From: Roseovarius sp. S88 | GTDB lineage: Bacteria > Pseudomonadota > Alphaproteobacteria > Rhodobacterales > Rhodobacteraceae | Assembly (NCBI RefSeq): GCF_037023735.1 | Contig: NZ_CP146069.1 | Location: 2,459,501-2,523,500 of the forward strand | Direction: 5' to 3' | Length of the DNA: 64,000 nucleotides | Shown: positions 24 through 7,303 of the stretch, piece by piece | Position numbering within the stretch: the stretch's first letter is position 1 | Layout: each line of letters starts with the position of its first letter | Notes under the pieces: generated by a model | The model's database searches: none | Told to the model about the DNA's origin: nothing | The model's input: only the letters and a program-made list of their open reading frames with translations | Position numbers and translations under genes: made by a program

Positions 24-527
24 TCAATCCTCGCCCGGTGGGTAAACCAGAGTGAGGGGATCGAAGTCATCCGACTGCTCGGACAGCCAGGCCTCCATCT
101 CGGCCCCTTCCGTGCCTTCATAGGTGTCGGCGTTCCAGATCTCAAAATACTCGCCCATGGCGACCATCGTTGCCTCGCCGTCCAGCCCAATCTGCTGGCG
201 CAAACGCTGCGGCAGAACAATCCGGCCGTCCTTGTCAATTTCGGTATCCCAGGATTTGCCCAAGATCATCTTGCTGGCACGTTTACGCGCCTCGGACCCG
301 CGCGGCATGGCACGGATATCGGCCTCGATCTCGGCCATCGCCTCAATCGTATAAGCCTGTAGACAATTCTTCAGATGGGGTCCGTGCAACACGACCATGC
401 GAGGCAACGGGTTTTCCGGGCAGCGCGGGTCGCCATCGGCCAGCACAGCGCGAAAATCGGCAGGGATCGACATCCGACCCTTGCCGTCAACCTTCTGGTT
501 AAACTCGCCTCTGAAGCTCAGCGTCAC
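24..527 (-). CDS. mraZ: Transcriptional regulator MraZ
   Basis: MraZ is an AbrB-like DNA-binding protein that represses its own division/cell-wall operon by binding repeated GGG-containing boxes. Two copies of the family motif are visible: FNQKVDGKGRMSIPADFR near the N-terminus and DKDGRIVLPQRLR in the second half. The frame stays open upstream to an ATG at 608, but the extra 27 residues are basic and low-complexity. The GTG at 527 is preceded by an AAGAGGGG ribosome site and gives a 167-residue protein of usual family length with the conserved FRGEF right after the start, so I chose it. The rsmH start lies 3 bp downstream. Confidence 0.9.
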   Translation of the reverse strand: MTLSFRGEFNQKVDGKGRMSIPADFRAVLADGDPRCPENPLPRMVVLHGPHLKNCLQAYTIEAMAEIEADIRAMPRGSEARKRASKMILGKSWDTEIDKDGRIVLPQRLRQQIGLDGEATMVAMGEYFEIWNADTYEGTEGAEMEAWLSEQSDDFDPLTLVYPPGED

Positions 528-1210
528 TGCGCGCCTGCCCCTCTTGTTCTGCCCCCGTTTCGATTTTTTTAGCCCCTGAAACGAAACGACGGATTGAGCT
601 GCTGCCACTGCCCAATCCGCCGCCCTCGTCCCGCTTTGCGGGGTGTCCAGCTGCGCGCGCCACCTGGGGGGATGTCTGCTCGCCCGCGCGCCGGATCTCT
701 CGTTGTGATGAAGCGGGTGCCTGTATGAAACCTGACTTGGAATTTTTCGGGGTTCTAAATGCCCCTCTTATCCCGTCCTCATCGTGCAAGAAGTAATACA
801 TGGTACTTCCTGGAACTCAATAAAAATTTACCCGAATAGCTACTGAATATGGTTTTTTCAGCTCTCCCAAAACAATATCTTGTATACCTATTGGGTAAAA
901 CAACACATAATTTGGGGTAAAAATAAATTATTAACACAACATATAGTGAATAATTTCCTTTCCTAAAAATTCCCATATTTTCCCGGATATTTCTCAAAGC
1001 ACTACAATCAAAATGAGATCAAAACAAGAACATTTTGATTTCACATCAAAAATTCGCCTGAAATTCCACAAGTGATTCGCGTCAGACCATCGAAGATTCC
1101 ATGATTTCCCGGCGCAAACACCACTCGGTTCCAGGCAATCCCATCCAGATGGGGAATTCAGTCGCAAAATGTCTGAAAACTGGGTGCGTCAGACCTTGCA
1201 AACGGAGGGC
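528..1210. other. Gene-free, partly AT-rich region upstream of mraZ
   Basis: No convincing gene is present. About 780-1080 is strikingly AT-rich compared with the rest of the window and presumably carries the promoter(s) of the mraZ/dcw operon. A perfect 10-bp inverted repeat (AATCAAAATG at 1006-1015, CATTTTGATT at 1031-1040) sits at its distal end. A possible weak promoter reading toward mraZ has TTGAGT, a 16-bp spacer and TATTAC, at about 795-822 on the minus strand. No clear array of MraZ boxes was found. Confidence 0.5.
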
Positions 1211-1573
1211 TTACTCTTCCACCGACCTGGCCGTCACCACAACTTCGATCAGATACCCCGGATCCAGCGCCACGCCTACGCAGGCCCGTTGTGGCCAGTT
1301 CGCCTCCGGACCGATCCAATCGTTCCACTCGACGTCCATCTCTGGTTTGAAGGCGATATCGCTCAGATACACCGTCGCCTGAAGCAGCTGAGTCTTGTCG
1401 CTGCCGACCTCGCGCAGAAGCCTATCAAGCTCCTCCAACGTATTTGCGGTCTGCGCCGCAATCCCATCCGCGCAAAACGGATCAGTGGCAACGATATAAG
1501 CCAGCCCACCGGCTTGTACGGCAGAACATCGGCCTATTGCCTCTCCGGGCATGCGTTTCACTTCAATCTCCAA
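1211..1573 (-). CDS. RidA (YjgF/YER057c/UK114) family protein
   Basis: This is a 120-residue single-domain protein of the Rid family, whose members hydrolyse reactive enamine/imine intermediates made by PLP enzymes, or act on related small molecules. The sequence shows the usual layout: an N-terminal strand, the TLEELDRLLREVGSDKTQLLQATVYLSD helix-strand core, and a C-terminal VALDPGYLIEVVVTA strand. The canonical substrate-binding arginine (R-x-C-V/A) is present in the form QRACVGVAL. The start overlaps the end of the GNAT gene by 11 bp, so it is the last gene of the dmdA run. The substrate cannot be told from sequence. Confidence 0.85.
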   Translation of the reverse strand: MEIEVKRMPGEAIGRCSAVQAGGLAYIVATDPFCADGIAAQTANTLEELDRLLREVGSDKTQLLQATVYLSDIAFKPEMDVEWNDWIGPEANWPQRACVGVALDPGYLIEVVVTARSVEE

Positions 1574-2069
1574 GCCACTTGAACATCACCAACGCATCCA
1601 CCAGCCCCTGCTCGGGATGTCGAAACGCGCGCGGCAACCGCCCCACAGTTTCAAACCCCAGCTTTATCCAAAGCGCTATCGCCCCCACATTGCTGGCGAC
1701 CACAAAATTGAACTGCATGGCCTCATAACCCAAATCGCGCGCCGCAGTCTGGCTGTGAACACACATCGCCCGGGCAATCCCCTGCCCCTGTGCGGCCGGT
1801 GCCGTAATGTAACCGCAGTTGCAGACATGGGCACCACCGCCCTGCTGATTGGTCTTGATGTAATAGGTGCCAAGGATCTCGCCATCCCGCTCGGCCACAT
1901 AGCTCGCCGCAGGCATATCGCACCGTAGGTGCAGAATGTCCTCACGCGAGATACCCGGATCAATGGCATAGGTATCCCCGGGCCGGATCACGTCGCGCAG
2001 GATCGGCCAGAGCGCGTCACGGTTATCGTCGCGCACTGGCCTTATCGTTAGGTCATCACGCGTTGACAT
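1563..2069 (-). CDS. GNAT family N-acetyltransferase
   Basis: A 168-residue acetyl-CoA-dependent acyltransferase of the GNAT fold. The acetyl-CoA loop motif A is visible as APAAQGQGIARAMCVHSQTAARDLGY, followed by the LGFETVGRLPRAFRHPEQGLVDALVMFKWL ending typical of small amine or amino-acid acetyltransferases. The substrate is unknown. Its start overlaps the acuI 3' end by 14 bp and its 3' end overlaps the RidA gene, so translational coupling within the DMSP operon is likely. The RidA/GNAT pair may remove reactive by-products, but that is inference from neighbourhood. Confidence 0.85.
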   Translation of the reverse strand: MSTRDDLTIRPVRDDNRDALWPILRDVIRPGDTYAIDPGISREDILHLRCDMPAASYVAERDGEILGTYYIKTNQQGGGAHVCNCGYITAPAAQGQGIARAMCVHSQTAARDLGYEAMQFNFVVASNVGAIALWIKLGFETVGRLPRAFRHPEQGLVDALVMFKWLGD

Positions 2070-3042
2070 CCACCACCACGCGGCCCTTGACCTGACCTTT
2101 GAGTATGTCCGCGCCCAACCCCGGCAAATCGGCGAGCGTCGCAGGCTGGATCATCGCCTCCAGCTTGTCCATCGGCAGGTCCTTGGCAATCCGCTCCCAT
2201 GCGCGAAGGCGGTTCTCATAGGGTTGCATCACACTGTCGATACCCAACAGATTCACGCCGCGCAAGAGAAACGGAATGACCGTGGCGGGCAACCCTGCTC
2301 CCCCTGCCAAACCCACAGCCGCAACACTGCCGCCATACTTGATCTGACCAAGCGCGCGCGCCAGCATCTCGCCGCCCACGGCATCCACACATCCGCCCCA
2401 GGTCTCGGCCTCGAGCGGGCGCTTGGTGGTCTCGTTGATCTCTTCGCGTGCCACGATCTGCGTGGCCCCAAGGCTTTTAAGATAATCCGCCGTCTCGGGC
2501 CGTCCGGTCACACCCGCCACCTCATGACCCAGATTGGCCAGAATGGCCGTGGCCACGGACCCAACGCCACCAGCGGCGCCTGTGACCAAAACCGGCCCAT
2601 CCTTGATCCCGTGATCTTCCAAAGCCATCACTGCAAGCATCGCCGTGAATCCGGCTGTGCCCACAGCCATCGCCTGGCGTGTATCAAGACCCATTGGCAA
2701 AGGAACAAGCCAGTCGGCGTTGACCCGCGCCTTTTGGGCATAGCCGCCCCAGTGCACCTCGCCCACACGCCAGCCGGTCAGAACAACCTTGTCACCGGGC
2801 TTGTACCGATCATCCTGAGACGCCTCGACGGTTCCGGCAAAGTCAATGCCCGGCACATGCGGATAGCTGCGCACCAATCCGCCGCCCGGCCCAATGCACA
2901 GGCCGTCCTTGTAATTCACTGTCGAGTATTCGACGGCGACGGTCACATTACCCTCGGGCAAATCCGCGTCACTGATTTCCTTGACCACAGCCGAGGTCTT
3001 GCCGCTCTCTTCGTCCTTTTCAACAACCAATGCGTTGAACAT
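2056..3042 (-). CDS. acuI: Acryloyl-CoA reductase AcuI (zinc-less MDR-family oxidoreductase)
   Basis: AcuI reduces acryloyl-CoA to propionyl-CoA with NADPH, which detoxifies acrylate made from DMSP and feeds propionate metabolism. The 328-residue protein has the medium-chain dehydrogenase layout: a GroES-like N-terminal domain (VNYKDGLCIGPGG...VPGIDFAGTV), then a Rossmann domain with VTGAAGGVGSVA and VTGRPETADYLKSLGA. The motif VGTAGFTAMLAVMALE and the C-terminal LKGQVKGRVVVDV are characteristic of the YhdH/AcuI group. I chose the ATG at 3042 (MFNALVVEK); the frame extends 17 codons further but without family similarity. It lies 58 bp after dmdA on the same strand, the dmdA-acuI order known in roseobacters. 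Confidence 0.93.
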   Translation of the reverse strand: MFNALVVEKDEESGKTSAVVKEISDADLPEGNVTVAVEYSTVNYKDGLCIGPGGGLVRSYPHVPGIDFAGTVEASQDDRYKPGDKVVLTGWRVGEVHWGGYAQKARVNADWLVPLPMGLDTRQAMAVGTAGFTAMLAVMALEDHGIKDGPVLVTGAAGGVGSVATAILANLGHEVAGVTGRPETADYLKSLGATQIVAREEINETTKRPLEAETWGGCVDAVGGEMLARALGQIKYGGSVAAVGLAGGAGLPATVIPFLLRGVNLLGIDSVMQPYENRLRAWERIAKDLPMDKLEAMIQPATLADLPGLGADILKGQVKGRVVVDVNA

Positions 3043-3100
3043 ATCGCTCTCCATCCTGTCCTTGCAGAGCCACGCCCTGCTTTCATCGTTCAAAAAATAC

Positions 3101-4204
3101 TCAAATCCAGAAACACCGGTTCACCGTGGCGCGACGCGTGCCATCCGGGGTCTCGACATCCAAAACCGTACCCGGTGTCCAATGGGTCATACGGATCATG
3201 CCGATCGCCACGTTGGTGTCAAAGTCCGGACTCCAGGCGGCGGAACTGACGCGCCCCACCACCGTGCCCTCAGACGTCACCGGCCACCACCTGTCACAGC
3301 CGGGCACAGGTGGTCCATCAATGGAAATCGCCCGGATTTCCTGCACCGGGCCTTCCTTGGCCACGCGCAGCAATGCATCGCGCCCGATACACCCAATCGC
3401 ACTGTGGGTGTTGCAAAACTTGCCCAGCCCACATTCATGCGGTGTGTTGTCATCGGTCATGTCATTGCCGTAGCTCAACAAGCCACCCTCGATCCGTTCA
3501 ATGAGGTTGGGGCACCCGGCATGTACATCCAGATCCTTGCCCGCCTCCATCAACGCATTCCAAAGCGGCATGCCGATGTCGCCGCCTTCAACATAAACCT
3601 CAAAGCCTCCCTGCTTGGAATATCCCGAGCGCGCGATCACCAGATCACGGCCCTGAAAATCAAACACGCCAAAGCGGAAAAAGCGAATGTCACGCACCCC
3701 GTCGCCAAAGACCCGCGACAGAAGCTCATCCGATTTCGGTCCCTGAATGGCCAGAGGGGATACATCCGGCTCATCCACCAGCACATCCAGCCGCCAGCCA
3801 TGCGCAATCGCCTTGACCCAGTAGAGCAAGTCACTGTCAGCAATGGAAATCCACCAGCGGTCTTCTGACAGTTTCACCGCCACCGGATCGTTCAGCATCC
3901 CGCCGGTCTCATCCACGATAGGCACGTAGTAACATTGTCCAGCAGTCATACCGCGCAGGTCGCGCGGGGTGAGCATCTGCATCAAGCGCCCGGCATCCGG
4001 GCCACGCAGCTCGATCTGGCGTTCCACCGCAACATCCCAGATTTGTACCGCCTCTTTGAGATGCCGGTAGTCCTCCTCGACCGAGCGAAACACCGTGGGC
4101 AAAAGCATGTGATTATAGACAGTGTACGCCTTGACCCCGGCGGCTTCGACACCATCGGAAAAGGGTGTGCGGCGCAGACGCCGCGACGGAGACAAAAGCG
4201 CCAT
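3101..4204 (-). CDS. dmdA: DMSP demethylase DmdA
   Basis: DmdA is a tetrahydrofolate-dependent enzyme that removes a methyl group from dimethylsulfoniopropionate, giving 3-methylmercaptopropionate and 5-methyl-THF. The 367-residue protein has the aminomethyltransferase (GcvT) fold and matches my memory of Ruegeria DmdA across its length: the N-terminus PSRRLRRTPFSDGVEAAGVK and YTVYNHMLLPTVF, the central CYYVPIVDETGGMLNDPVAVKL, RSGYSKQGGFEVYVEG, and LLSYGNDMTDDNTPHECGLGKFC. GcvT itself lacks this N-terminus and the LLSYGNDM block. The start codon overlaps the stop of the small upstream gene (TGATG). The following gene is acuI, which supports the assignment. Confidence 0.94.
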   Translation of the reverse strand: MALLSPSRRLRRTPFSDGVEAAGVKAYTVYNHMLLPTVFRSVEEDYRHLKEAVQIWDVAVERQIELRGPDAGRLMQMLTPRDLRGMTAGQCYYVPIVDETGGMLNDPVAVKLSEDRWWISIADSDLLYWVKAIAHGWRLDVLVDEPDVSPLAIQGPKSDELLSRVFGDGVRDIRFFRFGVFDFQGRDLVIARSGYSKQGGFEVYVEGGDIGMPLWNALMEAGKDLDVHAGCPNLIERIEGGLLSYGNDMTDDNTPHECGLGKFCNTHSAIGCIGRDALLRVAKEGPVQEIRAISIDGPPVPGCDRWWPVTSEGTVVGRVSSAAWSPDFDTNVAIGMIRMTHWTPGTVLDVETPDGTRRATVNRCFWI

Positions 4205-4458
4205 CAGCTTTTTCCTCGTAAATTACGTTTACATGTGGTGGGCGCTTTGCCCGTCGTGGAGTAGGCCGCAATGCCACAGGTGGCACAGCGGTATTCGACA
4301 AAGCGACCGTTTTGATCGCCGGTTTCTGCCCATTTACAGTCTCGCTTTCGAAACACCTGATCGAGCTTTCCGGCGACCGTGTCCCCAGCCCTCTGGCGAC
4401 CCCAGGCCCACCAGACAAAGCCGATAACAGCCAGCGCGATGACAAGGGCCAGCGGCAT
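4204..4458 (-). CDS. Small membrane-anchored protein with C-terminal cysteine motif
   Basis: This 84-residue protein has one N-terminal membrane segment (about residues 2-19, ending in WWAWGRQR) and a soluble tail with cysteines spaced as a partial zinc-ribbon: one near residue 41, CATC at about 58-61, and one near 77. I do not recognise the family. A TGAGGA ribosome site precedes the ATG, and the gene is wedged between the DinB-like gene (1-bp gap) and dmdA (TGATG overlap). It is therefore probably translated with dmdA. It could be a metal- or redox-sensing accessory; nothing in the sequence proves this. Confidence 0.75.
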   Translation of the reverse strand: MPLALVIALAVIGFVWWAWGRQRAGDTVAGKLDQVFRKRDCKWAETGDQNGRFVEYRCATCGIAAYSTTGKAPTTCKRNLRGKS

Positions 4459-4459
4459 C

Positions 4460-4969
4460 CTAAGCGTCCTCAGGCATCAAAAAGAGATCGGAAACCGGCG
4501 CAACCAACCCTGCTGCGGTCAACAGGGCATGAATTTGCCCGCGGTGATGGGTTTGATGGTTGAACATGTGGGTGACGCAAAGCGCAATGGGCTTGGTCAC
4601 ATCGCGCTGTGCAGCACCCGAGTACCACTTGAGGTCCCCTGCGAGGTCAACACTGCGCAGAGAATTGGCCCAATGCCGGACCTTGCCATCCAAGTGAAAG
4701 CGCGCAGCGTTCCACGCGCCCAGCGTTGGATGCAACATCGGGCTCTTTGGAATGCCACCCACGGGTGCCTCTACTGAGGGATCAAACCGGCTCATCCAGA
4801 TCTGATCGCCCCAGAGCAAGTGATTGAGCGTGCCAAGGATCGACCCAAAGAACGCACCACGATCTTTGGTCAGAACCATCATCGGCTGACCATCCAACGC
4901 ATCAAAGATCTGGCGGTTTTGCCAAGCCCCATAGCGCGCCATCATCTGACAATATTCTGGCGTGATCAT
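4460..4969 (-). CDS. DinB family protein
   Basis: A 169-residue four-helix-bundle protein of the DinB/DUF664-type superfamily, which holds a divalent metal with three histidines and includes thiol-dependent S-transferases (mycothiol- or bacillithiol-type). Visible features are MMARYGAWQNRQIFDAL at the N-terminus, LNHLLWGDQIWMSRF with the first histidine, and MFNHQTHHRGQIHALL with the other two. The gene lies 9 bp after DUF1326 and 1 bp before the small membrane protein gene, inside the dmdA operon. A role in thiol or sulfur chemistry would suit that context but is inference. Confidence 0.88.
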   Translation of the reverse strand: MITPEYCQMMARYGAWQNRQIFDALDGQPMMVLTKDRGAFFGSILGTLNHLLWGDQIWMSRFDPSVEAPVGGIPKSPMLHPTLGAWNAARFHLDGKVRHWANSLRSVDLAGDLKWYSGAAQRDVTKPIALCVTHMFNHQTHHRGQIHALLTAAGLVAPVSDLFLMPEDA

Positions 4970-4978
4970 CTGCGCGGC

Positions 4979-5686
4979 CTAGGGCTTGGGGCCTTTCCAG
5001 TCGATCGGGCAAATCTCGGCGGACTTGCCGCCAAAGTCCCAGATCCGACCATAGTCGCGCACTTTGGATTTGATCCCGCGCGCGGCAATGATGTCCGGGC
5101 CCATCCAGTACTTGGAGTTTGAGATCATCACCGGATGATCCTTGCTGGCCCCTTCGACCATCTCAATCTCGCCCTGAATTTTCCGGCCAATGTAAAGCCC
5201 GCGCTTGGTGCCTTCGCGGACAATCTCGACCTTTTCGCGTTCGGCCCCCACGATGTCACTCACCAGCATGGTGAAGAGACCCGTGGTGCCCCCAGCCGCA
5301 CCAGAAAAAATCTGCAAGATACCATTATAGGCCTTGCCGCTGGCGCGCTCGTCCACATAAGCCGCCACTTTCCAGCCGCCTTCGGCCATGCGTCCAGGGA
5401 TATCGACCATCAGGCCCACGTTGAGACCCGACAAATCCTCCCCCTCAAAATGCCCCTCATCAATCGCAATGGCCATCCAGGCGTGACAATGCCCTTCGGT
5501 CGGTGGATGCGCCCCGAGACTGACCACGCAAGGGCAAAAGACTTCGCAAGAGCAATTCAGGAACAGCTCACCCTTGATGGCCCATTCCGTGGGTGACATC
5601 TTGCGCCGCTTGGGGTTTTCCATGCGGTTGTCGATGCGCTGCGACACCGGCAGCTTGTCTGCATCCTGACGACGTTTTAGGGCCAT
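4979..5686 (-). CDS. DUF1326 domain-containing protein
   Basis: A 235-residue protein with the DUF1326 signature: a cysteine-rich segment CSCEVFCPC, then GHCHAWMAIAIDEGHFEGEDLSGLN, typical of this uncharacterised family. The spaced cysteines and histidines suggest metal binding or redox activity. It has no signal peptide. The ATG at 5686 has a strong GGGAGG ribosome site. It starts 4 bp after the DUF2182 membrane protein gene. From memory the two families often occur together, so they probably form one functional pair. The role in a DMSP-linked operon is unknown. Confidence 0.88.
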   Translation of the reverse strand: MALKRRQDADKLPVSQRIDNRMENPKRRKMSPTEWAIKGELFLNCSCEVFCPCVVSLGAHPPTEGHCHAWMAIAIDEGHFEGEDLSGLNVGLMVDIPGRMAEGGWKVAAYVDERASGKAYNGILQIFSGAAGGTTGLFTMLVSDIVGAEREKVEIVREGTKRGLYIGRKIQGEIEMVEGASKDHPVMISNSKYWMGPDIIAARGIKSKVRDYGRIWDFGGKSAEICPIDWKGPKP

Positions 5687-5690
5687 GTTT

Positions 5691-6497
5691 CTATCCTCCC
5701 ATAACCAGCGGCGCGGCCAATACGGCCAGTCCGCCTGCGATCAAGATCATGCCCATGGGCCGGATCACCCGGTGGCCGATCTGTGGTAACTTTTCCAATA
5801 CCATAAAGAGCGTGGCCAGTCCCATCCAGAGCAGGCTCATCACTCCGCCGACAAATCCCAACGCCATGAAGCCCCAGCAACAGCCAACGCAAAAAGCGCC
5901 CATGCCCAGCCCCATGCGCAGCCCGCCGCCAAAGCCGGTGCGCCAGTGGCCCAGGAAATAGGTCATCGGGCTATGACACACCCCGTGACAGACCTCTTTG
6001 GCGCGGGTGAACTGAAAGGCCCCCACGACAATCAGCAGGCCACCAGAAATGAGCGTTGATTTGGCGATTCCCAGCATGTCAATCACACCGCCGAACAACA
6101 GCCCAAGCTGCACCAGCGTGATGAGGGCGGCAAAGCCCACCCATACGGCGAAGTAACCCAGCAGAACACCAAGCCAGCCCGGTGTCGTGCCATTGGCGCT
6201 ATGAATGAGGTCTTCATAAGCCCGCAGCGTCGGCACCATCGTGGGCAGCATCATCGCCGCCATCATGATCGCCCACATGGCAAAAATCGAGCCAAACCGG
6301 TCCATCGCCATCATGCCTTCGCCCATCGACATTGGCATGCCAGGCTGCATTGCGCGCATCTTTTCCGCCATGGGTCCAGGACGCCCAATAAGGTCAAGGT
6401 CCATGCCAATCGCCATCATGTACATGACCATCCAGGCCATCAGAATGGTGGCAAATAACGCGAGCCAGGCGATGGAACGCAGCGACAAAACGGACAT
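5691..6497 (-). CDS. DUF2182 predicted metal-binding integral membrane protein
   Basis: A polytopic, methionine-rich membrane protein of 268 residues with about seven membrane segments. Family marks are WAIMMAAMMLPTMVP, the cysteine-histidine pair KEVCHGVCHSP, and CVGCCWGFMALGFVGG. Methionine-rich runs (MAEKMRAMQPGMPMSMGEGMMAMDRF between the first two membrane segments) recall copper-handling proteins, but the family has no settled function. I prefer the ATG at 6497; the frame also has a TTG at 6527. It is the first gene of the minus-strand run that includes dmdA and faces the GntR gene across a shared promoter region. Confidence 0.87.
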   Translation of the reverse strand: MSVLSLRSIAWLALFATILMAWMVMYMMAIGMDLDLIGRPGPMAEKMRAMQPGMPMSMGEGMMAMDRFGSIFAMWAIMMAAMMLPTMVPTLRAYEDLIHSANGTTPGWLGVLLGYFAVWVGFAALITLVQLGLLFGGVIDMLGIAKSTLISGGLLIVVGAFQFTRAKEVCHGVCHSPMTYFLGHWRTGFGGGLRMGLGMGAFCVGCCWGFMALGFVGGVMSLLWMGLATLFMVLEKLPQIGHRVIRPMGMILIAGGLAVLAAPLVMGG

Positions 6498-6511: not shown

Positions 6512-6540
6512 TTGGATTGAGTCTCAACTGGCGATATAAT
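6512..6540 (+). promoter_or_regulatory. Near-consensus sigma-70 promoter of the GntR gene
   Basis: TTGGAT at 6512-6517, a 17-bp spacer, and a perfect TATAAT at 6535-6540 form one of the best promoters in the window. The predicted start near 6547 gives a leader of about 19 nt. AAAGG at 6553-6557 is well placed as the ribosome site for the ATG at 6566. Confidence 0.7.
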
Positions 6541-6565
6541 TGTCAGACATTTAAAGGTCTGACAA
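6540..6565. promoter_or_regulatory. Inverted-repeat operator, probable GntR self-regulation site
   Basis: A perfect 9-bp inverted repeat, TTGTCAGAC (6540-6548) and GTCTGACAA (6557-6565), with an 8-bp centre. It starts on the last base of the -10 box and ends just before the ATG, so it covers the transcription start and ribosome site. Each arm, read with flanking bases, nearly fits the T-N-GT-N3-AC-N-A dyad of FadR-subfamily GntR proteins; the two dyad centres are 15 bp apart. A bound regulator should block its own expression and may also affect the divergent dmdA operon. Confidence 0.65.
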
Positions 6566-7303
6566 ATGAAATCTTCCTCTGACAGCAAACCACAGGACCT
6601 CTCAGCGCAAATCGCCCAGGCCATCCGCGATGCCATCATCGAAGGCCGCATGATCGTGGATGAACGCCTGCCCTCGGAGGCGGAACTGTCAGAGCAGTTT
6701 GGCGTCTCACGGTCCACTGTGCGCGAAGCCCTCAAGCGGCTTGCAGCACAATCGCTGATCCGTACGCAGCGCGGCGCCTTTGGCGGGGCTTTTGTCAATC
6801 GTCTGAGCTACGAGGATGCCTATAGCCAGCACATCACGACCTCGACGCTTTTACTGTCGATGAACGCAGTCAGCTTTGAGACCGCCTGCGAGGCGCGCTA
6901 TGCCATGGAACGGGCCTGCGCGCCCCGCGCGGTCGAACGCCGAACGCCCGATCATCTGGCCACCATGCGCGCCGAAATTCACCGCCAGTCCCAACCGGGC
7001 CTGAGCGACGAAAGCTTCTGCGCCTCAGATGTCGCCCTGCACCGCGCATTGGTCGATGCCGCGGGCAACCCGGTGCTCAGCTATCAACTCGCCGGGGCGG
7101 TTGAAGCCATGCAGCCTCTGATGAACATGATCACCTTCACAGCGCGCTCAAGAGAAGAGATTGTGGGTCTGCACACCGAACTGGCAGATGCGTTAGAAGG
7201 CGGACGGGCAAAAGACGCTGAAGCCGCGCTTCACAAACTCGAAGCTTACACACTGACTTTGGGGCATGATGTCATGGCCGCGCGGGCGCGCAAGTCGAGC
7301 TGA
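6566..7303 (+). CDS. FadR-subfamily GntR transcriptional regulator
   Basis: A 245-residue regulator with an N-terminal winged helix (about residues 8-75; LPSEAELSEQFGVSRSTVREALKRLAAQSLIRTQRGAFGG) and a C-terminal all-helical FCD-type ligand domain (about 90-230) with acidic/histidine positions such as DVALHRALVDAAGN and GLHTELADALEGG that hold a metal in relatives. Such proteins usually respond to small carboxylates. It is divergent from the eight-gene dmdA run and has an operator over its own promoter, so it is the natural candidate regulator for that run. The ligand might be a DMSP-derived acid, but this is inference. Its stop codon abuts that of the AraC gene. Confidence 0.92.
   Translation: MKSSSDSKPQDLSAQIAQAIRDAIIEGRMIVDERLPSEAELSEQFGVSRSTVREALKRLAAQSLIRTQRGAFGGAFVNRLSYEDAYSQHITTSTLLLSMNAVSFETACEARYAMERACAPRAVERRTPDHLATMRAEIHRQSQPGLSDESFCASDVALHRALVDAAGNPVLSYQLAGAVEAMQPLMNMITFTARSREEIVGLHTELADALEGGRAKDAEAALHKLEAYTLTLGHDVMAARARKSS

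Follow-up and report, generated by a model that had tools for sequence, protein, structure and literature searches.

A 64,000-nucleotide stretch of the Roseovarius sp. S88 genome (contig NZ_CP146069.1, positions 2,459,501 to 2,523,500; hereafter the window) carries an operon in which the dimethylsulfoniopropionate (DMSP) demethylase gene dmdA and the acryloyl-coenzyme A (acryloyl-CoA) reductase gene acuI stand among six further genes. The eight minus-strand genes occupy positions 1211-6497 and are separated, in transcription order, by 4, 9 and 1 bp, an overlap of 1 bp, 58 bp, an overlap of 2 bp and 1 bp. The largest gap, of 58 bp, lies between dmdA and acuI, and all remaining gaps are 9 bp or shorter; these coordinates bear out the layout given by a first-pass annotation of this DNA. 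Its dmdA-acuI pair held as well. The dmdA product (3101-4204), a member of the GcvT family, scored 682 bits against NF009133 (cut-off 410), and the acuI product (2056-3042) scored 443 bits against TIGR02823 (cut-off 297), narrowly missing the narrower model NF051456 (423 vs 440 bits). With a bona fide DmdA and acuI directly 3' on the same strand, the arrangement resembles the Roseobacter dmdA-acuI operon (Ruegeria pomeroyi SPO1913-SPO1914), for which passages of PMC3338564 describe dmdA directly before acuI on one strand and acrylate handling coupled to the demethylase.

The first gene of the operon, ppoB2 (5691-6497, minus strand), encodes a polytopic membrane protein of the family formerly called DUF2182 (PF09948, 205.1 bits against a gathering threshold of 28.7), probably a Cu(I) transfer protein; Pfam has renamed the family PpoB2, "copper chaperone". 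It is paired with a DUF1326 protein (4979-5686; PF07040, 163.5 bits against 25) that has a CxCx3CPC loop and two further conserved cysteines and is the sole DUF1326 match in the window genome. Both belong to the version that we call type 1 below. A divergent gene on the plus strand (6566-7303; PF00392, PF07729) encodes a GntR/FCD regulator, the likely controller of the operon. Between gntR and ppoB2 lies a putative, unstranded GntR operator (6540-6565) recognised by sequence, with the boxes TTGTCAGACC and ATGTCTGACAA 15 bp apart; they follow the operator-like form TGTCWGACA, and one of them abuts the gntR start codon. The regulator gene and its palindromic boxes had been missed by the first-pass annotation.

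The gene behind the pair encodes a DinB-family putative metal-dependent protein (4460-4969; PF05163, 65.8 bits against 23), a frequent but optional member. Its residues H50, H138 and H142 are conserved (1.00, 0.98 and 0.98 over 43 rows) and correspond to what we take to be the three metal-binding histidines of DinB-type thiol transferases; by family match and histidine triad it is a putative enzyme of this type. No report joining dmdA with DinB was found in the literature searched. Between dinB and dmdA lies an 84-amino-acid open reading frame (ORF; 4204-4458) with a hydrophobic N-terminal stretch and a C-terminal cysteine, which had no match in Pfam or NCBIfam at E 0.01. Downstream of acuI follow a GNAT acetyltransferase gene (1563-2057, with an alternative ATG at 2069; PF00583, 50 bits against 20.7) and a gene for a Rid-superfamily protein (1211-1561, with an alternative TTG at 1573; PF01042, 52.9 bits against 27.3). 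As the latter scores far below the TIGR00004 cut-off (31.4 vs 106.25 bits), the earlier name RidA is too specific, and only membership of the superfamily can be kept.

We compared the locus with the best 80 of 364 genome-contig stretches holding DmdA relatives, with flanks of up to 10 kb, a sample rich in Roseovarius. Counting genes within about 6 kb of dmdA in the expected order and strand, we found GntR at 69 loci, AcuI at 67, DUF1326 at 62, PpoB2 at 59 and DinB at 34. GNAT, counted within 5.5 kb downstream, was present at 26, nearly confined to Roseovarius (25 of the 26 loci bear that title). The 84-amino-acid ORF was recovered at 5 loci, short genes of this kind being missed by the simple codon-score finder used on the fetched loci, and Rid at 1. 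The common order was gntR< >ppoB2(DUF2182)>DUF1326>(dinB)>dmdA>acuI. Thirty-one loci carried GntR, PpoB2, DUF1326, DinB and AcuI, 25 the same set without DinB, 9 only GntR and AcuI, 8 none of them and 7 other mixtures. GNAT, the 84-amino-acid ORF and Rid are local members outside the conserved block. The eight genes do not, as had been proposed, form one conserved unit; of the suggested ties between the flanking genes and dmdA-acuI, that of the DUF2182-DUF1326 pair stands, that of DinB stands in part, and those of GNAT and Rid fall away. A lack of conserved gene order in relatives, the outcome that would have spoken against the earlier proposal, was not seen for the pair, less clearly so for DinB. 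On the far side of the operon, mraZ (window 24-608), presumably the start of the cell-division cluster, is next on the same strand, and MraZ lies downstream of the operon at 19 of the 80 loci.

A second sample comprised 150 genomes of the family, one per genus, at least 90% complete and including the window genome. DUF1326 occurred in 77 of them (91 genes), DmdA exceeded its cut-off in 62 and AcuI in 140. DUF1326 was present in 52 of the 62 dmdA genomes, directly upstream of dmdA in 47, vs 25 of the 88 others. Spacing was tight: PpoB2 and DUF1326 were at most 30 bp apart in 62 of 78 adjacent pairs, and DUF1326 and DinB in 35 of 40. In a class-level survey, DUF1326 was found in 39 of 289 genomes. 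Among 28 loci added from that survey, with flanks of only 1.5 kb, DmdA was seen in 3 (L262 from another family; L277 and L279 from the family of the window genome) and AcuI in none; L262 shows the order GntR-PpoB2-DUF1326-DmdA, with acuI outside its flank. The remote DUF1326-PpoB2 pairs, mostly 25-45% identical to our queries, had varied neighbours. Judged by eye from sequence starts, a hydrolase-like/TetR-like neighbourhood recurred in three loci and no copper enzyme was recognised among the neighbours. At one locus (L016, Sedimentitalea nanhaiensis) DUF1326 was present with no recognised PpoB2 between gntR and dinB.

The conserved operon thus extends beyond the two genes that the literature passages describe as a unit. 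In PMC3338564, which treats dmdA-acuI, the ppoB2-DUF1326-(dinB) segment is unnamed in the passages covered and the main text makes no mention of GntR; the pair is likewise unnamed in passages of PMC4334477, PMC9870897 and PMC9769926. The terms DUF2182 and DUF1326 were not found in the literature searched, the related term COG5486 appearing only in PMC2855505.

The partner to which the pair is physically tied proved to be acuI. With linkage defined in the 150 genomes as the same strand within 5 kb, 43 of the 91 DUF1326 genes were linked to both acuI and dmdA, 14 to acuI only, 4 to dmdA only and 30 to neither. DUF1326 lay beside acuI in 57 genomes, and upstream of it in all 57; one genome (G004), whose pair and GntR gene are transcribed away from acuI, was left out of the count. 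In the 14 acuI-linked cases without an intervening dmdA, the arrangement was ppoB2-DUF1326-(dinB)-acuI with the usual place of dmdA empty. In 12 of these genomes dmdA was absent or under the cut-off, and in two (G115, G001) it lay elsewhere. Since the pair stays upstream of acuI where dmdA is missing, it belongs physically to the acuI operon, and the block is best described as a GntR-acuI operon with dmdA as a usual but optional member. We also searched for a DMSP lyase (PF16867) as a source of acrylate where dmdA is lacking and rejected it; it exceeded its cut-off in 5 of the 12 operon genomes that lack dmdA and in 63 of the 150 overall, and so showed no enrichment, this being the one lyase family searched.

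No pair stood beside four dmdA loci of the dmdCDBA type (L022, L038, L046, L186) or five partial ones (L051, L053, L067, L190, L202, of which L067 and L202 are the same place). These clusters hold an acyl-CoA dehydrogenase, an enoyl-CoA hydratase and an acyl-CoA ligase, with one member per cluster scanned; the names dmdC, dmdD and dmdB are our assignment by position. Roseovarius mucosus has two dmdA copies, one in a GntR-ppoB2-DUF1326-dinB-dmdA-acuI block (L017, strain DSM 17069) and one of the dmdCDBA type without the pair (L022); Roseovarius sp. 217 (L074) is another carrier of the block. Demethylation as the basis of the link, implied by the first-pass annotation, is therefore doubtful, given these loci and the 14 of 57 acuI-linked pairs with no dmdA between; in its favour, the acuI-linked pair was found in 45 of the 62 dmdA genomes vs 12 of the 88 without dmdA. 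On the DmdA tree, the dmdA genes of dmdCDBA-type clusters fell mostly among operon dmdA genes, so that the operon is no less likely to have lost dmdA than to have gained it by insertion. On the AcuI tree, which is weakly supported (8 of 78 branches starred) and includes added loci picked for lacking one or other gene, we counted at least 10 changes for dmdA, at least 17 for dinB and at least 9 for DUF1326. All trees were of the "quick" type, without a mixture model.

Other members enter the block occasionally. An acyl-CoA synthetase gene lay within it in L018, L039, L049, L052 and L176 and after acuI in L070 and L075, and in L147 a BCCT transporter took the position of acuI. In four genomes of another alphaproteobacterial family (L268, L271, L275, L278), PpoB2-DUF1326 was followed by an acyl-CoA synthetase, of the PRK08162 subfamily in the two that were scanned; that of L268 was 49% identical to the block's synthetase.

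Across the 80 dmdA loci, TGTCNGACA was found upstream of 59 of the 69 homologous gntR genes, compared with 0.2% in letter-shuffled copies. Where a GntR locus had no adjacent dmdA, the box was present in 5 of 7 cases (L164, L166, L167, L176 and L181, with none at L156 and L179), and it also occurred in loci without the pair, e.g. L034, L042 and L045. In the window genome, WTGTCWGACAW had 13 sites vs 3 for a reversed control. Seven lie inside called genes; the six others comprise the operon, one mtoX (methanethiol oxidase) gene, an unannotated 606-amino-acid gene with a site 22 bp from its called start, and three without a clear target. The mtoX site (L252 2956-2966; G000:C1:3257455-3257465) precedes, by about 97 bp, the match of one of this genome's two mtoX genes. 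The box was absent upstream of the 15 other mtoX-B genes examined and present upstream of 1 of 20 in the mtoX-A group. According to passages of PMC3338564, dmdA and acuI of R. pomeroyi, an organism other than that of the window, are induced about 12-14-fold by acrylate and 10-14-fold by DMSP. An acrylate-responsive acuI operon with an optional dmdA would fit this induction.

The pair itself comes in two versions that occupy the same slot. Among the loci compared, PpoB2 was about 40% and DUF1326 53-61% identical across the versions, and each protein was assigned to type 1 or 2 by its better match to one of two reference proteins. Of 72 adjacent pairs at acuI/dmdA loci, 23 were 1-1, 48 were 2-2 and 1 was mixed, i.e., 71 of 72 were matched. 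Over the same 53 loci, the type changed once on the tree of the pair vs nine times on the tree of the flanking GntR, DmdA and AcuI. Grouping the 17 type-1 loci in one clade was rejected on the flanks (log-likelihood 565 worse; approximately unbiased test, p-AU 3e-5) and by each flank gene separately (GntR p 1.3e-10, DmdA 9e-6, AcuI 4e-8). Six cross-type locus pairs had GntR, DmdA and AcuI 83-92% identical, with PpoB2 at 39-45% and DUF1326 at 54-61%. For example, GntR, DmdA, AcuI, PpoB2 and DUF1326 were 92, 92, 85, 39 and 57% identical between L054 and L068, 85, 89, 89, 45 and 57% between L010 and L078, and 90, 83, 91, 40 and 56% between L058 and L021. DinB, directly behind the pair, stood at 65-72% in these three comparisons. 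Two more cross-type pairs had less similar flanks (71-88%), and the same-type loci L041 and L068 were 72% identical in PpoB2, 87% in DUF1326 and 75% in DinB.

The pair thus behaves as one exchangeable unit, and the scattered types reflect either its in-place replacement as a unit or the patchwork loss of old duplicates. If the versions were old tandem duplicates, differential loss would also yield several changes on the flank tree, and the counts give no direction. However, at none of the loci examined do the two versions stand next to each other in the acuI/dmdA block, and the types alternate among close relatives (L054 vs L041 and L068; L010 vs L078), which leaves differential loss an unlikely account of the scatter. 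Under replacement or loss alike, the slot seems to call for a matched pair. Together with the acuI linkage without dmdA, this alternation of matched pairs between conserved neighbours is the most surprising result of the analysis.

What the pair does is suggested by its residues and relatives. Over 55 rows of both types, the invariant PpoB2 columns include M28, M74, M78, M82, M83, C170, C174, C203, C206, C207 and M211, among them those of an invariant MWx2Mx3MM helix and five invariant cysteines. Its predicted model (pLDDT, the predicted local distance difference test, 88.9) matched no solved structure at a Foldseek E below 0.001, and a sequence search of the PDB gave no relative of PpoB2 or DUF1326 at E 1. 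DUF1326 has six conserved cysteines and a predicted acetoacetate-decarboxylase-like fold, its model matching PDB 4zbo, 4jmd and 3bgt at 6-13% identity; from that superfamily it differs in this low identity, in the CxCx3CPC loop and in the two further conserved cysteines. Passages of PMC2855505 report that the PpoB2 of Marinomonas transfers copper to tyrosinase. The PpoB1-PpoB2 tyrosinase operon of Marinomonas mediterranea described there resembles the present one in placing a PpoB2-family membrane protein in an operon with its likely client. It differs in that the partner is a copper tyrosinase, whereas the window operon has no recognised copper enzyme and PpoB2 is usually partnered by DUF1326. 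Metal handling by DUF1326 and DUF2182, which the first-pass annotation had offered as a possibility, is favoured by the family name, this published role and the invariant methionines and cysteines; a role specifically in copper is likely but unproven.

We therefore favour, at a probability of roughly 45%, a GntR-controlled acrylate/DMSP operon of roseobacters in which the PpoB2-DUF1326 pair manages copper. GntR would sit on the TGTCWGACA boxes and be released when acrylate, acryloyl-CoA or a related product builds up. DmdA would then demethylate DMSP and AcuI would convert acryloyl-CoA to propionyl-CoA, while PpoB2 may move Cu(I) across or along the membrane and hand it to the DUF1326 protein, which with its six cysteines would carry or buffer it. 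The need for copper management could arise as acrylate, and methanethiol or sulfide from DMSP, attack or bind cell thiols and copper.

Several observations weigh against this view. The decarboxylase-like fold predicted for DUF1326 is more suggestive of an enzyme than of a carrier, part of its cysteine loop was modelled at low confidence, and the soft-metal residues could instead bind zinc, an Fe-S cluster or a thiol. No known copper enzyme was found among the ten window proteins scanned (the eight genes, GntR and an AraC). The box is missing at 10 of the 69 GntR loci. The pair is not essential: it lies beside acuI in only 57 of the 140 acuI genomes, 4 of 47 dmdA-acuI loci are in genomes without any DUF1326, 9 of the 80 dmdA loci carry GntR and AcuI only, and 30 of the 91 DUF1326 genes are near neither acuI nor dmdA. 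Finally, acuI-linked pairs are commoner where dmdA is present (45 of 62 genomes) than where it is absent (12 of 88), which speaks against a purely acuI-based view. This excess slightly weakens a more specific form of the copper reading, a tentative and rather doubtful proposal, namely that acrylate/DMSP breakdown is bound to copper management by a matched, exchangeable pair with a new decarboxylase-fold Cu(I) carrier, which would head an acrylate-induced acuI operon and protect or load copper as acrylate and methanethiol form.

Copper might not be involved at all. DUF1326 could be an acetoacetate-decarboxylase-like enzyme whose cysteine cluster performs thiol or acyl-thioester chemistry on acrylate, acryloyl-CoA or methylthio compounds, with PpoB2 as a transporter or sulfur-handling partner. 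Acetoacetate decarboxylase works through a catalytic Schiff-base lysine; the match of DUF1326 is one of overall fold, with no catalytic residue matched, and the identity to decarboxylases is only 6-13%. Neighbours that would fit such a role were not recognised beside the remote DUF1326-PpoB2 pairs. The invariant PpoB2 residues, moreover, include methionines and cysteines in predicted helices, and the PpoB2 with a published role transfers copper (passages of PMC2855505). This alternative appears unlikely.

Hitch-hiking, in which shared ancestry or a conserved position in the chromosome makes neighbours of genes that are functionally unconnected, fits GNAT and Rid. It also draws on the outer neighbours common to many loci (a fumarase-type lyase, an aminotransferase and a photolyase, and the mraZ side in Roseovarius), which represent real synteny by descent. 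Yet the core order is kept amid many different outer neighbours and although dmdA, dinB and DUF1326 have been lost or gained repeatedly (at least 10, 17 and 9 changes on the weak AcuI tree), and it recurs, without acuI in the flank, in another family (L262). Unless the pair is linked to the slot or its regulator, two divergent matched versions in one slot are also difficult to account for. For the core of the operon, we consider hitch-hiking improbable.

A more defined copper client would be MtoX, which passages of PMC5739008 and PMC10936201 describe as a copper-dependent methanethiol oxidase; the pair would supply its copper, and the enzyme would burn the methanethiol formed after demethylation. 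In passages of PMC5739008, a putative copper chaperone gene, SCO1/SenC, adjoins mtoX in many bacteria, and the mtoX-SCO1/SenC-mauG cluster, DMSP-enhanced in R. pomeroyi, likewise ties a copper chaperone gene to organosulfur breakdown. That cluster differs in chaperone family and place. In our data, mtoX adjoins the operon in L015, L024, L040, L052 and G038 and dmdA in L189, and one of the 13 box sites of the window genome precedes an mtoX match. At L015, L024, L040, L052 and L189, mtoX is followed by a conserved hydrophobic protein of 216-221 amino acids; the L015 copy has no NCBIfam match at E 1e-20. Over the 150 genomes, MtoX accompanied operon-type DUF1326 (32 of 61 vs 15 of 89, p 6e-6), counts that exclude weak or partial matches (G020, G027, G032, G069) and include fragments (G013, G051, G126, G141), with Fisher tests that ignore relatedness. 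However, MtoX tracks dmdA (36 of 62 vs 11 of 88, p 4e-9), and among dmdA genomes alone it is no longer associated with the pair (29 of 49 vs 7 of 13, p 0.76). MtoX is also lacking in 29 of the 61 genomes with operon-type DUF1326 and in 9 of the 12 operon genomes without dmdA. The pair is thus not simply an MtoX chaperone, and the lost association and the MtoX-free operon genomes count against the copper reading as well. MtoX as a general copper client is rejected on the result within the 62 dmdA genomes and the absent box at 15 mtoX-B genes, and supply of MtoX by the pair is very improbable. What is left is a general, as yet unproven role in protecting or loading copper under thiol and acrylate stress.

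DMSP breakdown, in which cells switch between demethylation and cleavage, sets how much marine sulfur reaches the air as dimethyl sulfide. Usually dmdA-acuI is pictured as a unit of two genes; in the loci described here it belongs to a larger conserved block, headed by two little-studied proteins that probably handle copper and by a GntR with a recognisable operator. On the more specific form of the copper reading, dmdA would be a frequent but optional member of an acrylate-responsive operon, which would explain the puzzling induction of the demethylase by the product of the rival cleavage pathway. DUF1326 gains a predicted fold and a physiological setting, and the slot provides a natural example of matched genes that alternate, as a pair, between two versions. 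The regulator, its ligand and the copper link become directly testable in tractable marine bacteria.

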